A stretch of 64,000 nt of DNA, from assembly GCA_003213595.1 (NCBI GenBank), contig QCMR01000002.1:1-64000 (forward strand). The letters are read 5' to 3'. Below are positions 45,997 through 55,667 of the stretch, piece by piece. The position numbers and the translations under genes were made by a program. The stretch's first letter is position 1. Each line of letters starts with the position of its first letter. Below the pieces are notes generated by a model, which saw only the letters and a program-made list of their open reading frames with translations, had not been told where the DNA came from and did no database searches. Source of the stretch: SAR86 cluster bacterium AG-422-E19 (GTDB lineage: Bacteria; Pseudomonadota; Gammaproteobacteria; Magnimaribacterales; AG-339-G14).

Positions 45997-46761
45997 TTAA
46001 ATGATATTAGGGATTACTGCTTTCCTGTCTTTCGGATAATCTTCGAATTTTGCTTGATACCATTTGTGATTAGAGATGGCGCGTGGGAAAAGATTGCAAA
46101 CCGTCCATAAGAAAAATACCAAGCCAGCCCAGCTGAAGGTCATGATGGCCCAGCCCAGCCATTCAATGAATTCTCCTAAGTAATTTGGATTACTGACTTT
46201 ATTAAAAAGGAAACCTTCCGGAATGTGATAGCCCTCGCCTTTTTCTTTTCGCAAATTGATCATGATCTCATCGGATCTGACATTGATATAAAATCCGCTA
46301 AAAAAGACGAGCAAACCCAACAGGAAAGGAATGGTTGTAAGCCAACCGCTGCTGTAGTCGCTCAATAGAAAAATCCAAGTACCTTGGAAAAATACATTCA
46401 CAAAATTAAAGCCAATGGCAGAGAACACCACCATCAAAGGCATCTTCTTATCGGTCGATTGCGCCCTCATGGGCCAAATGAAACTGCGATTGAAATAGTG
46501 CCCACAATACAGAACTGTAAAAATAACGTGTACCGGATTGGTGTAGTCACCAGCAACGACGAAAAAAATCAGCATCAGGAAAAAAGCTGGACACTCTTCT
46601 ATGATCCAACCGGCTTTGGCTGATATTTCAGGCCCCCAGCCTGTGGAGACGTGTTTTCCATAGGGTGCGGTTTGGAAAAACAAATAGACAAAGGCAGTTA
46701 AGCCAACGGCTAACCAAGCGATGAGTAAATAATTAAAAGTGCTTAGCGTAATAAAGGTCAT
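45997..46761 (-). CDS. Steroid 5-alpha-reductase C-terminal domain family membrane protein
   Basis: The 254-residue protein has six or seven helices and the signature of the 3-oxo-5-alpha-steroid 4-dehydrogenase family in the last 120 residues: FYINVRSDEIMINLRKEKGEG, YHIPEGFLFNKVSNPNYLGE, FIEWLGWA and the end NHKWYQAKFEDYPKDRKAVIP. These include the Asn-Pro-x-Tyr-x-Gly-Glu motif that binds NADPH in the family. It should reduce a carbon-carbon double bond conjugated to a carbonyl in a lipid or steroid-like compound. It overlaps the ion-channel gene by four bases, an odd pairing with no known precedent that I can name. Confidence 0.9.
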   Translation of the reverse strand: MTFITLSTFNYLLIAWLAVGLTAFVYLFFQTAPYGKHVSTGWGPEISAKAGWIIEECPAFFLMLIFFVVAGDYTNPVHVIFTVLYCGHYFNRSFIWPMRAQSTDKKMPLMVVFSAIGFNFVNVFFQGTWIFLLSDYSSGWLTTIPFLLGLLVFFSGFYINVRSDEIMINLRKEKGEGYHIPEGFLFNKVSNPNYLGEFIEWLGWAIMTFSWAGLVFFLWTVCNLFPRAISNHKWYQAKFEDYPKDRKAVIPNII

Positions 46762-47519
46762 AAACCTTCATTGTCTTTGTTTGTTACGTGATCGTTGGCA
46801 TCGATGTTATCAAATAGATTCTCTCTCGCATCACGACTCATTACGTCGACAATGATTCCGATAACCATATTCAGCAATACGACTGATGTAACCAAGATAA
46901 AACTGATGAAATAGATCCAAGAGTAAGGGTGGGCATCAAGTACATTGGTCATAACCGCAGCCCAATCATCGTAAGTAGCCACTTGCGCTAAGGTCAATGC
47001 TGCAATTCCGATGTTGCGCCAATGTTCCGGATCGGTTTCGCTGTAAATCAAAGTGCCGATTGCCGCCCAAATATAAATCACGATAAACATGAGCAAGGCA
47101 ATGAAAGCCACCCTTGGCATCGATTTGAAGAGCGATTCCACAATGTGACGAAATGCCGGCACCACGGTAATGATTCTAAGTACTCGAACAATTCTCAAAA
47201 GACGGGCCACAAAAGCGCTTTCGGCGCCATCGACTGGCACCAAACTGACCACCACAATAATGAAATCGAAAACGTTCCAACCGTTTTTGAAAAAACGTAC
47301 AGGATGGTTGGCTTCAGCAAAAATACGAATCAGGATTTCGACCAAGAAGAAAACCGTAATGGCATAGTCGAAGTAATCCAAAATAACGGTGTATTGATTT
47401 GGAATGTCATAAGAGCTAGCACCAGCGTAAATGGCAGACGCCACAATCACAGAAATCACTAGGCCCGTAAAGAACTTGCTGTCCCGAATACTCAAAAAGA
47501 AATCGATAAACTGTCTCAT
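46758..47519 (-). CDS. Single-domain voltage-gated cation channel (BacNav-like), DD filter
   Basis: The 253-residue protein has six helices of the Ion_trans fold. The voltage sensor S4 carries R106, R109, R112 and R115 at three-residue spacing (RLLRIVRVLRI). S5 and the pore helix (ALTLAQVA) lead to the filter T182-Y-D184-D185-W-A, and S6 is FILVTSVVLLNMVIGII. NaChBac has TLESWAS and the NavAb filter is TLESWSM; the engineered calcium-selective CavAb has TLDDWSD. The natural DD here suggests calcium permeability. The C-terminal tail is acidic with a short helix. The gene leads the minus-strand unit that includes the 5-alpha-reductase-like gene. Confidence 0.9.
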   Translation of the reverse strand: MRQFIDFFLSIRDSKFFTGLVISVIVASAIYAGASSYDIPNQYTVILDYFDYAITVFFLVEILIRIFAEANHPVRFFKNGWNVFDFIIVVVSLVPVDGAESAFVARLLRIVRVLRIITVVPAFRHIVESLFKSMPRVAFIALLMFIVIYIWAAIGTLIYSETDPEHWRNIGIAALTLAQVATYDDWAAVMTNVLDAHPYSWIYFISFILVTSVVLLNMVIGIIVDVMSRDARENLFDNIDANDHVTNKDNEGL

Positions 47520-47552: not shown

Positions 47553-47583
47553 AAAAAACTGAACCCGACACAAAGCCGGGTCC
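47553..47583 (-). terminator. Terminator after the giant FecR/cadherin gene
   Basis: On the minus strand ACCCG (47581-47577) pairs with CGGGT (47567-47563), extended by an inner C-G pair, and is followed by TCAG and six T. It lies about 120 bases after the stop codon of the giant gene at 47703 and before the ion-channel gene at 47519. Confidence 0.6.
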
Positions 47584-47702
47584 AGAGAGCATAATTTTTT
47601 AAATGTAGTAACGAAATTGTCGCCTAAGTACCAAAAAGACAACGGCAAACGTTATTTAAAATATTACGCTCCTTTAAATTCTTTACATAAAGTTCCTCTT
47701 TT

Positions 47703-50700
47703 CTACTCCGATAAAATAACGGTTCCAATCGCTTGCAAATAATTATCAGCATTTTGTTTGGAATAAATTAGCTCCGCGCCTGCTTCAATGTGTGAGGCGG
47801 TGCCATAAAGACTGCCTTGCATGTACTTCCAAGTACTCACGCCAAGGCCTGCAACACCAGCAGCACTATCTCCTCCACTAAAATTTGGATTTCCATTTGT
47901 GCCGGATGCCATCCAGGTAATGGTGCCCATACTTTGTCCCTCGGTCCAATTATTTGCGTAAGCTCCAGAGCCCGAACTACAAGCGTATCCACTGGCTGCA
48001 CCGTTGTCACAATTGGTTCTACCCAGGTCATGAACATGGATGGTTACGCCGTAATTCCCCGAACCATCAAAGACCACAGAGCCTTGTGCTCTGGAACCTT
48101 CGGTCCAGTTGTAATTGGTCGTAACCCCGCCCACGGTTTGACTTTTCCACATGCTGAACATTGCCATTCCTGCAAGATTTGCAGTTCGACTGACTGGCCA
48201 ATCGCTCGCATCCAATAAATCTCCGGCATACCATGTTCCCATATGCACGGCACTCGGTTGTTCGCCAGACAAGTACTCAATGCCATCGTTTGTGGCCATG
48301 GCCCATATCCCCCAAGTCATGTATTCCAAGGACGGTTCGGGGTCTGCACAATCACTATTTTGAAATCCGGAACAAGTGCTTAGCCAGTCTTTGTCTTTTT
48401 CATCGATGGTATCCCAGGTGACCATCGCCCCGGCATTATCAACATTTCGGCTTTCAAAAGTGGCAGGGCCGATACCAGATTGGTCGATATTCTTTGATTC
48501 GTTTTTCAGTATGGCGCCGAAAACTTTTTTATTGATGTAGGCGGAATTTGCAAAAGTAGCGCTATCTTTTTGATTGTCATCGTCACCAAATTGCAAAGTA
48601 CTGCCACGGGCAGCATCCACTGGATGAACAGGCAAGCAGCTATTGAAAGTCCAAGAAGTTAGGGCGTCATTACAGCCGCTTGGATGAGCATGATACCAAG
48701 TATTTTCTCCAACACTGGTACCCGTATTCCAATCGGGATCCGCATGAATGTTGATATTAGTAGCTACGACTTTGACTCGGTCGTTGGTTTCATCAAAGGT
48801 AGCCGTTAAACCTGATCGAAAATACTGCGGCATGCTTTTTTGGGTTGAATCCACATCGGTCATCCAATGTCCTGAGAATCTTCCAGTCCAAGTATTCGCT
48901 GCAGAATTGTTTCCAGTTCGCCAACTGTTGGAGCCACTTAGATTAATTGAGTCGACGTAATTAGAACCATCGTATTGTTTTTGCTTAACAATTCCTTGAT
49001 AAAAGGTTTCGGTTTTGTATTTCTGATCGCCGATGACGTTGGAAGTGTTTGCTTCCATCGAGTACATCACACCCAATTCCATGGTTTTCGTAGATGTGTT
49101 GATCCCCTGGTCGCATCCCATGCTCCCAAACCCATTTACGGATGAACCAGTTAGAGAGCTACAAGGATCGCTGGTGGTAATGATTGCTGTTGCAGGGGCT
49201 TTAGGGAATGATTCCGCAGCAGTTACAGATTGATTGTCCCCAAAAAAGCAGCCGTTATCTGGACCGGAAGCACAAGCAATGGGATTGATACCAAAAGTAA
49301 TTTGCGAGGATTTTTCTGCACCAGCGTAGGCGCCATCGGTAGTGGTAGTTCTGCCATCTCTACGTTTGTAACTCCAGAAATGTTTTCCGTCCACGATAGG
49401 GCCGTTGGCTTTTTGTTGATAACCTTGGTTATCAAAATGTGATTTATCACCAGCATCGACAATCAAGACTGAGAACAAGCTCTGTTGCGAATTGTGAGGA
49501 GCCCCGGTTTTATTGGCCGTAAACTCACCACAAGGTTTCCCCGTTCCACAACTCCAATTGAGTTGCGCAAACAAACCCACTCCTTTGCCAGTAGGATTGA
49601 ATACTTGATACCAAAGCGACTGACCAACCGGCACGTAATCCGCACTGTCGGCTAAATTACCAAAGCGCTCTGAAGCGACATGATCGTTTTGGTGTAGTGC
49701 TTTTTTAGAGTAGTTGTACATGCCATCAATGTGCGCTTCGGTTTTGGTTGAAGAAGAACCATCCAAAGTATTAAAACTATTACTTCCATCAGTGTTGTAG
49801 ACGATGCAGTTGAAATTGGTTTTACAATAATCGTTGTCGTTCAACTGATGAAAGTCAAAATTTGCATCCGTACCGTTGTCCTTACTTTCCATGTAATCCG
49901 GAGAAATGAATTGCGGCATAAGAGTGTGTACGCGACGAAAACGCACATCGCTTTCTCCAGCGTATTGTGGCAATTCGTACTTGTTGGTATGTAAAATCGG
50001 AATGGGTGCATAAGCGACCACTTTCTTCGTATTGTTCAGAAAATCTTTAAGCGCTGTTTCTTTGTAAACCTCTCCAGCAATGACGATTTCATCTTGCGCA
50101 GTTGTGGAATTTATTACTTGCCCGGCTACAACCGTATCTGAACCAGTTACCCCGCTTCTATTGTTCGCGCCTGAGGTGAAACTACGCACACCTCCGGCTT
50201 GAGTACCTGCAACGGTATTGTATCTCAGACTGACTGGCGCTTTGTCCAAGTGCATCCACATGAATTCGGCCTGAAAACCAGAACGAAAAGATTGTTTGAC
50301 ATCCGAAGGTAAAAGAACGTTTTTCGTAGATCCAGAGCCTAGCGGAGTGAAATCATACATCCTCCCGTTTACATCAAGTCTTGCTGTAGTTGAGTTATAA
50401 GTACTAGAACAAGAGCTCGAAAGACTGCTGCTGCCCCCTGCTCCAACATAACAGTAGGTTGTGCCATTTCTCGCTGTATTTGGAGTAGTGAAATAACTGT
50501 TATACATAGAGTCAATTTGACTTGGCAAGTTATTGCCATCCGGATTTTGGAAAGTCTGCACCGGAGACCATTGGTCAATATCATTGGTTCCGTAAGGATC
50601 AAAATACATCAACTGAATGTAATCTTTTCCTTCACAAGCAGAGATATCTTCGGTAGCAGTTAAACAAGAGATATCTTTGCTGATTCCAGTGAAATAGTTG

Positions 50701-53700
50701 TGATTACTAGAATCAACATTAGTTTGTGCATCTGGAAAACGACCTCCAAATTTACCATGGACGATTTTGAAAGAATCGTCGTTCATATTGAATTGAATCT
50801 CTAAATTAACCTCAGCATTATTATCGGTCGATTTACCTGATCTCAGGTTATACCAACCAACCGTAAAGATTTTCGTTGCTGAATTCCATAAGGTTCTTAT
50901 GCTGAAGTTGGTTTCACCATTGAAATTTTCAGTATTGTAACCACCAAGCAATGCAAAAATAGAATTGTCAAAAGTTCCATCATTGATATCCCTACCCCAT
51001 TGACTAGGAATATAGGTTCCATCTAACCTATCGTTGGAAGTTCCCCCGCCGCCTTCAAAGTGTTTGGCTTCGTCAAAATAAGACAACGGATAAGCACCTC
51101 TATTGCCACCACTAGCTAGATTGTTTATAGATGCATTGTTATAAGGTTTGGTGGAATCCGTATCCAAAGAAACAAAACCGTTTTCATTAATATGCAAATG
51201 CGTAAAGCTATTACCGAAGTACTTAAAAGATTCAGGCAAAGTAATCGTATGATACTCAGCTTCTCCACCAGTAAAGTTTGTCAGCAATTGTGATTCCCCA
51301 CCGTCGTTTTTACCCAAAGCAAGCAGAGTTTGTGTGCCGGTTCCACTTCCTGAATTGGCGCCATTGTTGTTGGCATTCAACAAGTGATTGCCATTGTGAC
51401 CACTTGATATTGCATTCATGTTCAAGTTCCAATCTTTGACGGTGTAGCCTGAGAAACTACTGCCTGAACCTTCTGTAGTTGCCGTCCAATTAGCATCGAT
51501 GGTAAGTGCGGTGGTTCCACTTCCACAACCTTGACCTGAGTCTAAACACTTGTATTGTGCAATTTCATTATCGCTGGTTCGTTCCTGATCCCATTGGGCG
51601 TTGGCCGAAGACATGGGTGCGTATTGACGCCAGGTTGGATCGCTTGTGCCGCCATTTTGCTTATCAATTGGGAAGGAATATTGAAAGTCCAAAACATCGG
51701 TGTTGTGATCGTTGTAGCCATTGTTATAGGTATTAGTTTTGACATTTGTCCCACCACTTCCGTGGTAACTAGCGAAGCCGTTATCTTCGGGTACTGTCAC
51801 AAGTGGGTTTACAAGTCTATCGCTTAGGATTGTTTCGGTAACAACCCGGTTGCTCACACCGCCCGTGCCACTGGCATCTCGATGAGCTACAGCAGTAAAG
51901 GGATTGGCACCAGTAAAGTCATGCTGCACATTGTTATAACCTCCTGCAAATTTCATAACCAAGTTCTTATCTGGTTCAACATTTTTTGGTGCCAGCGTAA
52001 TGGTTCTTTGAACCGTTGGTTCGTTCGGAATATTTATGCTGATGGTCGCTTGTTTCTGCCCACTCACAGCACCAGTAGCACTATTTACTTCAAAAACGTT
52101 AGGGAAAGGAGCAGTCACTCTTCCATCGGAAGAAACCGCTAAACCGCTGGAGGTGTTATTGCTGCTGCTATAAGTAGTTCCAGCTGGCAATCCTTGTCCT
52201 AAGTTAGCAATGACGAAATCGTCAAACTCACCTGATCCTGTTTCCGTGAAATGATAAGTAATGGAGTTATCATTACTAACGTCTCCATCGACTGACATAA
52301 TTCGTTTCGAAGGCGAACCCGAATCGGTCACAGTGTAAGAGATATCGTTTACATTCAACGTATAAGTCTTGGTTTGAGACTCACCGCTTGCGTGTGCAGT
52401 AATATTAAAGGTATGAGACGTTGCTGTTTCATAATCCAAAGGGTTTATCAAAGTAACTTTTCCGGTAACAGCATTGATGGCAAATTTGTTATCGCCTCCG
52501 GTTAGGGTATAAGAAGTGCTCGAATGCACTGCACTCACTCCGGTACCAAAAATTTCTGTTCCAGTTGAGAGGTTTTCTGCTCTACTGTTCCCCATTGCTA
52601 TAAAATTGTCTGTAAGGCCGACAGCTATATCGGATACAGCCAAAGTAATGTTCTCAGTTACAGTCTCCCCTCCTGAGGAAGCTGTTATGCTAAAAGTATG
52701 TGATGTTGCCGTTTCGTAATCAAGCGCATTGGTAAGAGTTACCTCTCCAGTTGAAGAATTGATTGTGAATTTGTTATCTCCTCCGCTCAAGGAATACGTT
52801 GCGCTCTCAACGCCACTCAATGAAGAATTTAAGATTACAGAACCAACAGCAGTGACTTCTTGCGCTTGGTTACTATTATTTTTGATGGGAATGGCATAGT
52901 CATAACTATAGCCAATAGAAACATCGGATACATTTAACGTAAAGTTTCGAGTTTCGGTCTCACCGCCTGCAGTAACAGTTACGGTAAACTCGTGAGACTC
53001 TTTGGTCTCAAAATCTAAAGGATTGGCTAAAGTAACTTGTCCGGAAGAGGCATCTATTGCGAATTTGTTATCACCGCCAGAGATCGAATAAGTAGGATTA
53101 GCAAAATTTGAAATTGAAGAATTTAAAATGACTGTACCTGTAGCTACTGTTTCCGCTTTACTAGCAGAAATAAGACTGCCACTGTAGCCAGGGGATATAT
53201 CCGTTACGTTAAAAGTAGAACTACGTTCTTTGGTAATGCCTTTGGAGTCGGTTGCAATGACTTTTAAGTTGTAAGAATTTGTTGTCTCATAATCCAAAGC
53301 GCTATTTAGAGTAACCTGACCGGTTGTTTGGTTGATGGCAAATTTATTACCAAAATTGTTTTCCAAAGAGTAAGTCAGATCATCGATATCGGTATCGGTT
53401 CTCGAGGCATTTATCACAACTGTTCCGGTAGCTACAGATTCCGCTAAAGCACAAGAACTTTGACAAGCGGTAGTGAAATCAGGCGCGATGTTTTCCAGAA
53501 CGTCAATTTTTACTGGTACGTCTACCGTTTCTGTTCCTGCAGTAACTTTTACCACCAAGTTGAATGCTTTGCGGTCGGTAGAATCAAAAGCTTTATCCAG
53601 TTTGATTTTCCCGTTTTTATTAATTCGGAAATACTCTTTACCTTCACCAGTGATTTCATAAGTTGGCGTCTCATCTGAGACAGGGTTAATGTCTGCAACG

Positions 53701-55667
53701 ATCGTATTAACAGAAGTTGTTCCTTCGTGATAGTTTGTTGCTCTAACCGAAGACGTAGCAGTCAATTCAGAGACATCGGCAATATTGATAGTGAAAGGAA
53801 CTCTTATGGTTTCCCCTTTTCTATTGGTAACTAAAAGTACCAAGTCGTATTTTTCATTGGTTTCGAAGTCTAGGAAATCTTTGGTTTTAATCTTCCCTCG
53901 GCGGTTTACCTTAAATACTCCAAAGTCGTCTTCCAAGGCATAAGTCATACCCTCGCCTTCTACTGCAGTCGTTGCAACCAAAGTGTTTTTTGGCGAACTC
54001 TCAATAAAAGAATCCGCTCGGACAGATACGTTAGCTGACATTTTCTCTTCGATGGCTTCTTGTTGAACAGTCTCAGCTGTGGTGTCTTGAACTTCTTCGG
54101 TGGTTTCTTCTGCTGGTTCCTCTTCTTCTTGTTCAACTTCAAATAAATCGCTCGCACCCAACTCACCACCGATATCATCGGAAGTAGTCAATTGATCAGG
54201 AGCAACATTTGAACTGTTATCGGAAATACCTGAATCGGTCAAAAGCGAATCTTCATCAATGACAATTTCCGGTTCTTCTTGCTCTGAAACTTCATTGAAT
54301 TCATTATTTAAATCCACTTCACCACTGTCTTCTTGTCCGCCAACATCAGGTGTTCCAGAATCAGCTGCAGGACTATCATCACTGGTTTCAATTTGTGCAC
54401 TGCTCTCATCGCTGGCAGCTCTATCTGAACTGATAGGTTGTTCAGTTTCACCTTCTTCATTTTCTAAAGCGGGTCCCTCTTCTGATTGATCTGCTCCAGA
54501 TGAGTCTTCTTGAGCGCCATCATCGGATGTTTGTTCATCAGACCCCGATTCTTCGGCGGGCGCTTGTTCTTCTTGTTCTTCTGATGATTCACTACCAGAA
54601 TCACCTTCGCTAGATTCGCTGTCTCCAGAATCTTCACTTTGTTCTTCTGTGGATTCTTCTTCTGTGGATTCTTCTTCTGTGGATTCTTCTTCTGTGGATT
54701 CTTCAGATTCTTCAGACTCTTCTTCAGAAGATTCTTCTTCTGACTCTTCAGATTCTTCTTCTGACTCTTCAGATTCTTCAGATTCTTCTTCGGATTCTTC
54801 TTCTTCTGATTCTTCTTCGGACTCTTCTTCTTCGGACTCTTCTTCTTCTGATTCTTCTTCGGATTCTTCTTCGGACTCTTCTTCTTCTGATTCTTCTTCT
54901 TCAGACTCTTCTTCTTCTGATTCTTCTTCCTCTTCCTCAGATTCTTCTTCCGATTCGCTTTCGGATTCTTCTTCCTCTTCTTCCTCGCTACCTTCCAAAC
55001 TTGCTGAATAACTCGCTAAAGCTTCAGCAGTTAAAAGTTCAGGAGTGTCGATATCGTCATATGGATCATTAACCTCAACAACAAAACCATCTTCTGTAAG
55101 TACCGTACGACCATCTTGGTTTTCCAGAGGAATGACTTCCATTTCCTGTCCATAGACAAAAGCAGCTGAGGTTGTCTCTGCATCTGAGTCAACGATGACA
55201 ATCCCACCTCGAATACCAACTGTCGCAACATTGGTGTTAATGGTTGCGGCATTTTTCTTGGTTACTTTTCCCCCAACAAGTCTTAATAGACCAGTCGCCT
55301 GCATTTCAAGAAAACCATCATTGGTCTCAGGGTTGTAAACGAATTTGTCCAATATCACTTTGGAGTTCGGTCCAATGGTAAAAGCCGTTCCATCGACAAG
55401 AATCATTTGCGCTTTACCTTTCTCATCGGTTTCGATGGTTCGGTTTTGAATGATCTTGTAACCCTCTTCAACCAGGCGACGTTCAGCGAACATTCCTGAT
55501 GGATCGTAAAAGTTATCAGTCGTAGTCGTATTTACAGCAGCTGCAACACCAATTTCCTCTTGGGCATAGGCAAGCAGTCCCGCCGAAAATCCCACCAAGG
55601 TGACAAAAAGTTTTAAATTGAATTTTTTGGTACTTTGATGAGATAAAAAGTTATTTTTTATCTTCAT
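47703..55667 (-). CDS. Giant exported FecR-domain/cadherin-repeat protein (2654 residues)
   Basis: A signal peptide ends near residue 35 (SAGLLAYA before QEE). Residues about 65-175 form a FecR domain (GYKIIQNRTIETDEKGKAQ, LVDGTAFTIGPNS, VATVGIRGGI). Residues 226-540 are an acidic Ser/Glu/Asp tract. From about 542 to 1115 lie six cadherin-like repeats of about 85 residues; the last four share GGDNKFAI, G-VTL and LDYET motifs. Residues 1115-2654 are unassigned: Asn/Gly/Ser/Thr-rich, with several cysteine pairs. One part (about 1470-1665, PESFKYFGNSFTHLHINENG) resembles a nidogen-like beta domain. No outer-membrane anchor, LPXTG or RTX repeat is seen. FecR-plus-repeat proteins are probably surface adhesins, but the role is unknown. 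It is divergent from a TetR gene by about 60 bases. Confidence 0.88.
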   Translation of the reverse strand: MKIKNNFLSHQSTKKFNLKLFVTLVGFSAGLLAYAQEEIGVAAAVNTTTTDNFYDPSGMFAERRLVEEGYKIIQNRTIETDEKGKAQMILVDGTAFTIGPNSKVILDKFVYNPETNDGFLEMQATGLLRLVGGKVTKKNAATINTNVATVGIRGGIVIVDSDAETTSAAFVYGQEMEVIPLENQDGRTVLTEDGFVVEVNDPYDDIDTPELLTAEALASYSASLEGSEEEEEEESESESEEESEEEEEESEEEESEEEESEEEESEEESEEESEEEESEEEESEEESEEEESEEESEESEESEEESEESEEESSEEESEESEESTEEESTEEESTEEESTEEQSEDSGDSESSEGDSGSESSEEQEEQAPAEESGSDEQTSDDGAQEDSSGADQSEEGPALENEEGETEQPISSDRAASDESSAQIETSDDSPAADSGTPDVGGQEDSGEVDLNNEFNEVSEQEEPEIVIDEDSLLTDSGISDNSSNVAPDQLTTSDDIGGELGASDLFEVEQEEEEPAEETTEEVQDTTAETVQQEAIEEKMSANVSVRADSFIESSPKNTLVATTAVEGEGMTYALEDDFGVFKVNRRGKIKTKDFLDFETNEKYDLVLLVTNRKGETIRVPFTINIADVSELTATSSVRATNYHEGTTSVNTIVADINPVSDETPTYEITGEGKEYFRINKNGKIKLDKAFDSTDRKAFNLVVKVTAGTETVDVPVKIDVLENIAPDFTTACQSSCALAESVATGTVVINASRTDTDIDDLTYSLENNFGNKFAINQTTGQVTLNSALDYETTNSYNLKVIATDSKGITKERSSTFNVTDISPGYSGSLISASKAETVATGTVILNSSISNFANPTYSISGGDNKFAIDASSGQVTLANPLDFETKESHEFTVTVTAGGETETRNFTLNVSDVSIGYSYDYAIPIKNNSNQAQEVTAVGSVILNSSLSGVESATYSLSGGDNKFTINSSTGEVTLTNALDYETATSHTFSITASSGGETVTENITLAVSDIAVGLTDNFIAMGNSRAENLSTGTEIFGTGVSAVHSSTSYTLTGGDNKFAINAVTGKVTLINPLDYETATSHTFNITAHASGESQTKTYTLNVNDISYTVTDSGSPSKRIMSVDGDVSNDNSITYHFTETGSGEFDDFVIANLGQGLPAGTTYSSSNNTSSGLAVSSDGRVTAPFPNVFEVNSATGAVSGQKQATISINIPNEPTVQRTITLAPKNVEPDKNLVMKFAGGYNNVQHDFTGANPFTAVAHRDASGTGGVSNRVVTETILSDRLVNPLVTVPEDNGFASYHGSGGTNVKTNTYNNGYNDHNTDVLDFQYSFPIDKQNGGTSDPTWRQYAPMSSANAQWDQERTSDNEIAQYKCLDSGQGCGSGTTALTIDANWTATTEGSGSSFSGYTVKDWNLNMNAISSGHNGNHLLNANNNGANSGSGTGTQTLLALGKNDGGESQLLTNFTGGEAEYHTITLPESFKYFGNSFTHLHINENGFVSLDTDSTKPYNNASINNLASGGNRGAYPLSYFDEAKHFEGGGGTSNDRLDGTYIPSQWGRDINDGTFDNSIFALLGGYNTENFNGETNFSIRTLWNSATKIFTVGWYNLRSGKSTDNNAEVNLEIQFNMNDDSFKIVHGKFGGRFPDAQTNVDSSNHNYFTGISKDISCLTATEDISACEGKDYIQLMYFDPYGTNDIDQWSPVQTFQNPDGNNLPSQIDSMYNSYFTTPNTARNGTTYCYVGAGGSSSLSSSCSSTYNSTTARLDVNGRMYDFTPLGSGSTKNVLLPSDVKQSFRSGFQAEFMWMHLDKAPVSLRYNTVAGTQAGGVRSFTSGANNRSGVTGSDTVVAGQVINSTTAQDEIVIAGEVYKETALKDFLNNTKKVVAYAPIPILHTNKYELPQYAGESDVRFRRVHTLMPQFISPDYMESKDNGTDANFDFHQLNDNDYCKTNFNCIVYNTDGSNSFNTLDGSSSTKTEAHIDGMYNYSKKALHQNDHVASERFGNLADSADYVPVGQSLWYQVFNPTGKGVGLFAQLNWSCGTGKPCGEFTANKTGAPHNSQQSLFSVLIVDAGDKSHFDNQGYQQKANGPIVDGKHFWSYKRRDGRTTTTDGAYAGAEKSSQITFGINPIACASGPDNGCFFGDNQSVTAAESFPKAPATAIITTSDPCSSLTGSSVNGFGSMGCDQGINTSTKTMELGVMYSMEANTSNVIGDQKYKTETFYQGIVKQKQYDGSNYVDSINLSGSNSWRTGNNSAANTWTGRFSGHWMTDVDSTQKSMPQYFRSGLTATFDETNDRVKVVATNINIHADPDWNTGTSVGENTWYHAHPSGCNDALTSWTFNSCLPVHPVDAARGSTLQFGDDDNQKDSATFANSAYINKKVFGAILKNESKNIDQSGIGPATFESRNVDNAGAMVTWDTIDEKDKDWLSTCSGFQNSDCADPEPSLEYMTWGIWAMATNDGIEYLSGEQPSAVHMGTWYAGDLLDASDWPVSRTANLAGMAMFSMWKSQTVGGVTTNYNWTEGSRAQGSVVFDGSGNYGVTIHVHDLGRTNCDNGAASGYACSSGSGAYANNWTEGQSMGTITWMASGTNGNPNFSGGDSAAGVAGLGVSTWKYMQGSLYGTASHIEAGAELIYSKQNADNYLQAIGTVILSE
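52330..53440 (-). repeat. Four tandem cadherin-like repeats within the giant gene
   Basis: Four units of about 85 codons follow each other. Each has a variable start (A-E-x-V/L-x-T-G-T), then GGDNKFAI or NKFAI, a G-Q/E/K-VTL strand, and LDYET or LDFET. The last three are closest to each other, as if recently duplicated. Two more divergent copies lie at about 53480-54040. Confidence 0.75.
54640..54990 (-). repeat. Ser/Glu-coding low-complexity tract with 15-bp minisatellite
   Basis: This stretch is built almost only of TCTTC, GATTC and GACTC units and encodes Ser-Glu runs. At 54646-54705 a 15-base unit (TCTGTGGATTCTTCT) is repeated four times head to tail, encoding STEEE. Such tracts change length easily by slippage in multiples of three bases. 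Confidence 0.9.

Follow-up and report, generated by a model that had tools for sequence, protein, structure and literature searches.

A natural candidate calcium channel with an Asp-Asp selectivity filter in the SAR86 group of ocean bacteria

A single-domain voltage-gated cation channel with the selectivity filter TYDDWA is encoded in the genome of SAR86 cluster bacterium AG-422-E19, and its sequence makes it a natural candidate for a bacterial calcium channel in SAR86, an abundant group of ocean bacteria. Taking all of the evidence together, the explanation that we favor, and consider probable, is a voltage-gated, Ca2+-permeable channel with two rings of aspartates that is characteristic of a clade in SAR86 and in genomes labelled as Woeseiaceae. 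The gene is found in a stretch of 64,000 nucleotides, here called the window, which is part of contig 2 of an assembly of 1.1 Mb. The following features of the window are referred to in the text:

45997-46761, minus strand: steroid 5-alpha-reductase-like membrane protein (PF02544, E 2.9e-51), overlapping the stop of the channel gene by 4 bases
46758-47519, minus strand: voltage-gated cation channel gene of the TYDDW clade; 253 amino acids, one domain, six transmembrane helices
46938-47012, minus strand: pore loop, with P1 helix (170-181), filter and P2 helix (186-194), from the AlphaFold model
46959-46976, minus strand: selectivity filter T182-Y-D-D-W-A187, from reading of the sequence
47175-47204, minus strand: S4 (RLLRIVRVLR) with its invariant arginines R106, R109, R112 and R115
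47559-47585, minus strand: terminator-like hairpin and T-run between the giant and channel genes, a match to the consensus only
47703-55667, minus strand: giant secreted-type protein of 2654 amino acids, the conserved upstream neighbor of the channel

The channel open reading frame starts with ATG, and its product is matched by the Pfam domain Ion_trans (E 1.2e-45, residues 15-230). A first-pass annotation of this DNA had given exactly these bounds for the frame, omitting the strand (minus), and had read residues 182-187 as TYDDWA, as we do from the window; its description of a natural bacterial voltage-gated channel with a DD filter is borne out by the domain match, the fold and the conservation of the filter. 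The frame is not a chance one, given that the gene is carried by 57 of the 203 genomes of the order (a hand count, in which part of the loci were read at the filter) and that the filter residues are invariant despite synonymous codon variation. The opposite-strand frame at 47022-47462 (plus) is not open at that length in most of the relatives with at least 85% identity. The closest relatives of the channel (85-99% identity) come mostly from single-cell and metagenome genomes of the SAR86 cluster.

The AlphaFold model, built from 50 sequences (pLDDT 78.7, pTM 0.59), has all of the helices S1-S6 and a filter loop at residues 182-185 between P1 and P2, and a Foldseek search with this model matched NavAb, NavRh and CavAb (5klb, at rank 7). 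The features of a one-domain voltage-gated channel are all found: Ion_trans spans the whole protein, the S4 arginines are evenly spaced and are accompanied by countercharges in S1-S3 (E61 and D85), and the modeled P1-filter-P2 loop is followed by an asparagine in S6 (N217). Across 50 sequences at 32-94% identity, no change is seen in the four arginines, E61, D85, T182, W186 or N217, which speaks for a functional voltage sensor and pore; the four S4 arginines to which the first-pass annotation had drawn attention thus belong to a sensor that is intact by sequence. The best one-domain match in the PDB is NavRh (4dxw, E 2e-59), ahead of NavMs, NaChBac and CavAb, and four-domain T-type Ca2+ channels score above NavRh over their full length, but only through the sum of several repeats.

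Conservation of the filter in homologues, which had been proposed at the outset as a check on the DD reading, is strict. T182, D184, D185 and W186 are unchanged in all 48 distinct TYDDW proteins while their codons vary between synonyms; Tyr183 is replaced by Phe once, and filter position 7 is Ala, with Asn in one protein. Among loci of the order with at least 57% identity, all those whose filter was read have YDDW or FDDW. The carriers fall in three SAR86 families and in Woeseiaceae-labelled genomes, the channels of the latter being 55-58% identical to the window protein, and no TYDDW filter was seen outside these groups among 369 genomes sampled from the class and 398 sampled from the phylum, where the best other match had 48% identity and those that were read had other filters. 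Three contigs titled as Opitutia (L083), Flammeovirgaceae (L110) and Neomarinimicrobiota (L142) carry channels closest to the SAR86, Woeseiaceae-labelled and NavRh types, respectively, and are probably mis-binned or mis-titled records.

Phylogenetic analysis was used to place the channel in its family, with the filter columns left out and the tree rooted on the canonical set, which was picked as the outgroup; the position of two long rows (L154 and L186) is unsure. The TYDDW proteins form one clade (support 100/100) which, in a tree whose rows did not include CavMr and NavPp, branches away from the canonical BacNavs; the six rows of canonical TLESWSM channels split off from it at 100/100. The same side of the tree holds TFEDWTD channels from Idiomarina, Colwellia, Onishia and others, together with the NavRh clade (99/99), which has SAR86 members of its own and is separate from the TYDDW clade (100/100). 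The nearest group to the TYDDW clade is a small SAR86 clade with the filter TLEGWPD, a position that is not firm (96/75). In the alignment, the stretch after the filter tryptophan is one residue shorter in the non-canonical channels (W-AAVM versus WSMGIV), TFESWAT variants excepted. The window protein is therefore not a canonical BacNav of the NavAb/NaChBac type, from which it differs in its filter, its placement and this missing residue; nor is it a member of the NavRh clade, as it has no TLSSWE-type filter and groups separately. On sequence grounds it belongs on the NavRh side of the BacNav superfamily, not with NaChBac and NavAb. The set with which the first-pass annotation had compared it, NaChBac, NavAb and CavAb, is not the nearest one, as follows from the split in the tree and from the shorter stretch after the tryptophan; the NavRh side is closer both by search and by tree.

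We propose that the protein forms a homotetrameric, depolarization-activated cation channel of the one-domain voltage-gated family. In each subunit D184 would be the high-field-strength site (HFS) and D185 the HFS+1 or “beacon” site, both turned to the pore, so that the tetramer would hold two stacked rings of four carboxylates each (-8 e). In seawater, with about 10 mM Ca2+, the aspartate rings would have a high affinity for Ca2+ and conduct it inward when depolarization moves the four-arginine S4. The outcome would be a Ca2+-permeable and probably Ca2+-preferring channel, and we would guess that the influx is tied to the adjacent giant cadherin-repeat protein.

Support for Ca2+ permeation comes from several published channels. 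In NsvBa, an Asp instead of Glu at the HFS admits Ca2+ and Ba2+, and the D-to-E change abolishes this (PMC4225499); grafts of LDDWAD into NaChBac and NsvBa and of LDDWSD into NavAb favor divalents; and NaChBac mutants with a filter charge of -8 conduct Ca2+ (PMC7764494). We also count in its favor that Asp at HFS+1 is reported to give either Ca2+-selective channels or Na+ channels blocked by millimolar Ca2+ (PMC10120453). Phe at position 2 has been noted in some BacNavs and AnclNavs, and in NavAb a Phe at the position of the Tyr creates no divalent (Ca2+) block (PMC10349818). NavSp with LDDWSD gains affinity for Ca2+ and is not described as Ca2+-selective (PMC4972137). The missing third Asp, the shorter stretch after the tryptophan, the non-selectivity of NaChBac with LEDWAS and the silence of NavRh in heterologous cells count against Ca2+ permeation. 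With published evidence on both sides, we regard a Ca2+-permeable window channel as probable and a highly Ca2+-selective one as possible but rather doubtful.

A Na+ channel with divalent block, in which the Asp rings hold Ca2+ too tightly and Na+ entry is tuned by external divalents, is in our judgment an unlikely description of the protein. NavPp, a channel of a marine bacterium with the filter TLEDWTD, behaves in this way, preferring Na+ and being blocked by Ca2+, and its TLEDWSD and TLEDWAD mutants are still blocked and are not Ca2+ channels (PMC7041947); the TYDDW proteins stand apart from the canonical channels, in which grafted Asp residues confer Ca2+ selectivity, and the NavRh filter grafted into NaChBac is Na+-selective. 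However, the HFS residue of NavPp is Glu and not Asp, and it is Asp at this site which specifically admits Ca2+ and Ba2+ in NsvBa; the NavPp and TYDDW filters also differ at positions 2, 6 and 7. In CavMr, the G4D mutation lowers Ca2+ selectivity (PCa/PNa 7.7; PMC7041947), and from NavPp and CavMr G4D we conclude that, in channels other than the canonical ones, selectivity is not set by the charge of the filter alone. The prediction of calcium permeation in the first-pass annotation is accordingly a reasonable one as far as it follows from the engineered LDDWAD and LDDWSD filters, but the third Asp of those filters is absent here, the background is that of the NavRh side, and Na+-preferring NavPp shows that charge is insufficient off the canonical background.

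Very unlikely, in our view, is a cation channel without selectivity, through which Na+, K+ and Ca2+ would move about equally fast: NsvBa, with Asp at the HFS, and the LEDWAS mutant of NaChBac are both non-selective, and NsvBa with LDDWAD remains permeable to K+ and Rb+ and has a PCa/PNa of only ~30, but Asp at both HFS and HFS+1 favored divalents in all three of NaChBac, NavAb and NsvBa. That the gene might be a pseudogene, a mis-called frame or a non-conducting relic is hardly credible, as nothing speaks for it beyond the failure of NavRh, the closest solved relative, to give a current in insect or mammalian cells, whereas the gene is intact in dozens of genomes with S4 and filter invariant over synonymous codon variation, and the opposite-strand frame is not conserved.

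For the Ca2+-permeable channel that we favor, the genomic context offers a lead. The giant protein encoded upstream has a signal-like N-terminus, a FecR domain, a Ser/Glu-rich stretch, at least five cadherin repeats and a C-terminal region; the terminator-like hairpin between the two genes suggests separate units, so that they may be transcribed apart. An upstream same-strand giant gene of one similarity cluster is found in 23 of 31 TYDDW neighborhoods, the two genes being direct neighbors in 18 of these and separated by a single small gene in the other 5. The pairing recurs across three SAR86 families and the Woeseiaceae-labelled genomes, although the downstream genes differ between groups. 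Segments of the giant protein lie beside 39 of 54 TYDDW/TFDDW loci versus none of 61 loci with other filters, some genomes entering this count twice. By hand count, 47 of the 203 genomes of the order have both genes, 10 the channel alone, 3 the giant protein alone and 143 neither; by genus, the giant protein occurs in six genera, all of which belong to the eight with TYDDW (Fisher p 4e-4, 22 genera, shared ancestry not removed). Weak matches to the giant protein in the more distant families are not proof of orthology, and several genomes of the window's genus have two or more matches. We take the link between channel and giant protein, seen in gene order and co-occurrence, as a lead and not as a mechanism.

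Other candidates for context were rejected. The steroid 5-alpha-reductase-like neighbor is kept beside the channel in the window's genus only, which speaks against a functional link, and a link to Ca2+ export finds no footing in the Na_Ca_ex exchanger, which is present in 155 of the 203 order genomes regardless of the channel and is thus uninformative. A viral origin was discarded, with no relative on an IMG/VR contig and only one weak phage hit (26%), as was carriage on plasmids, where the best matches have ~43% identity and the two that were read (Pseudoalteromonas and Vibrio) are of the TFEDWTD type. The other Ion_trans protein of the genome (L002, 1105-2133, minus strand) has the filter TVGYGD, which rules it out as a paralog of interest; it is a K+ channel, with a C-terminal region that by eye resembles a cyclic-nucleotide-binding domain.

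Three filter types occur within SAR86: TYDDW, TLEGWPD and the NavRh-type TLSSWE. The TLEGWPD channels (L045, L046, L047 and L048) have nearly the TLEGWVD filter of CavMr and are a second candidate Ca2+ channel. NavRh-type channels (TLSSWE, TMSSWE and TVSGWE; L049-L058) are found in other SAR86 genera at ~47-55% identity to NavRh, so that relatives of NavRh are not confined to HIMB114-like alphaproteobacteria. The TFEDWTD set (L112-L139, L161-L207, L219 and L220) is large and mostly gammaproteobacterial. An Arg stands three residues before the filter Thr in all 68 distinct EDWTD proteins, where all other filter types have Gln, and charge compensation is a possible explanation; if the Arg offsets one acid, TFEDWTD would have the same net charge as TYDDWAA and TLEGWPD, -8 per tetramer. 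The TFESWAT channels (L162, L167, L192, L193 and L197) have Gln before the filter and one extra residue after the tryptophan; L162 and L167 are placed inside the TFEDWTD clade, and the sequence TFESWAT suggests reversion to a filter of the Na+ type.

As a native bacterial Cav candidate the window channel was preceded by CavMr, which has a glycine-based filter and was described as the first voltage-gated Ca2+ channel native to a prokaryote. In the literature searched, from which subscription journals were mostly absent, we found neither a TYDDW or TFEDW channel filter in print nor recordings of native TYDDW or DD-filter homologues, and titles and abstracts gave nothing tying SAR86 to voltage-gated channels. 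Asp-rich Ca2+ filters have until now been engineered devices, and here an Asp-Asp pattern is naturally fixed across a whole clade. One order presents three filter chemistries on related scaffolds, namely two Asp rings, a CavMr-like EG and a NavRh-like SSWE. A small set of genes of this kind could reveal which residues of the filter decide between Ca2+ and Na+ in channels not built on NavAb, and whether Ca2+ enters ocean bacteria through voltage-gated channels; a first clue to the purpose of such entry comes from the cadherin-repeat gene linked to the channel. The boldest reading, which we consider quite unlikely, is that SAR86 evolved a highly Ca2+-selective natural Asp-Asp channel independently of the glycine mechanism of CavMr, working with the adjacent giant cadherin-repeat surface protein of Ca2+-binding type. 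If true, membrane voltage, Ca2+ entry and cell-surface behavior would be linked in abundant ocean bacteria.

Among known systems, NavRh (4dxw, from alphaproteobacterium HIMB114) is ~43-47% identical to the TYDDW proteins and shares their S4 arginine spacing and the shorter stretch after the filter tryptophan, but its TLSSWE filter has no acid at HFS or HFS+1. CavMr and NavPp, of the AnclNav group, likewise occur naturally in prokaryotes, lie outside the canonical BacNav branch and carry additional acidic residues in the filter, and their filters TLEGWVD (PMC7041947) and TLEDWTD are nearly equaled by the TLEGWPD and TFEDWTD of neighboring clades; TYDDWAA differs from them in combining an Asp at HFS with another at HFS+1, in its Tyr at position 2 and in lacking the Asp at position 7. 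With CavAb and CaChBac (NavAb TLDDWSD and NaChBac TLDDWAD) the window protein shares the fold and an Asp-Asp-Trp at the same filter positions, whereas those are engineered on a canonical background and have a third Asp, in place of which the window protein, with D184 and D185 at positions 3 and 4, has Ala at position 7, and one residue fewer after the tryptophan. NsvBa is, like it, a natural bacterial channel with Asp at the HFS, and is Ca2+-permeant; unlike it, NsvBa is a canonical Bacillus channel, non-selective, whose filter TLDSWGS has Ser at HFS+1. Asp at both HFS and HFS+1 is also reported for the Ca2+-selective CatSper1 (PMC10120453), which is part of a eukaryotic heterotetramer.
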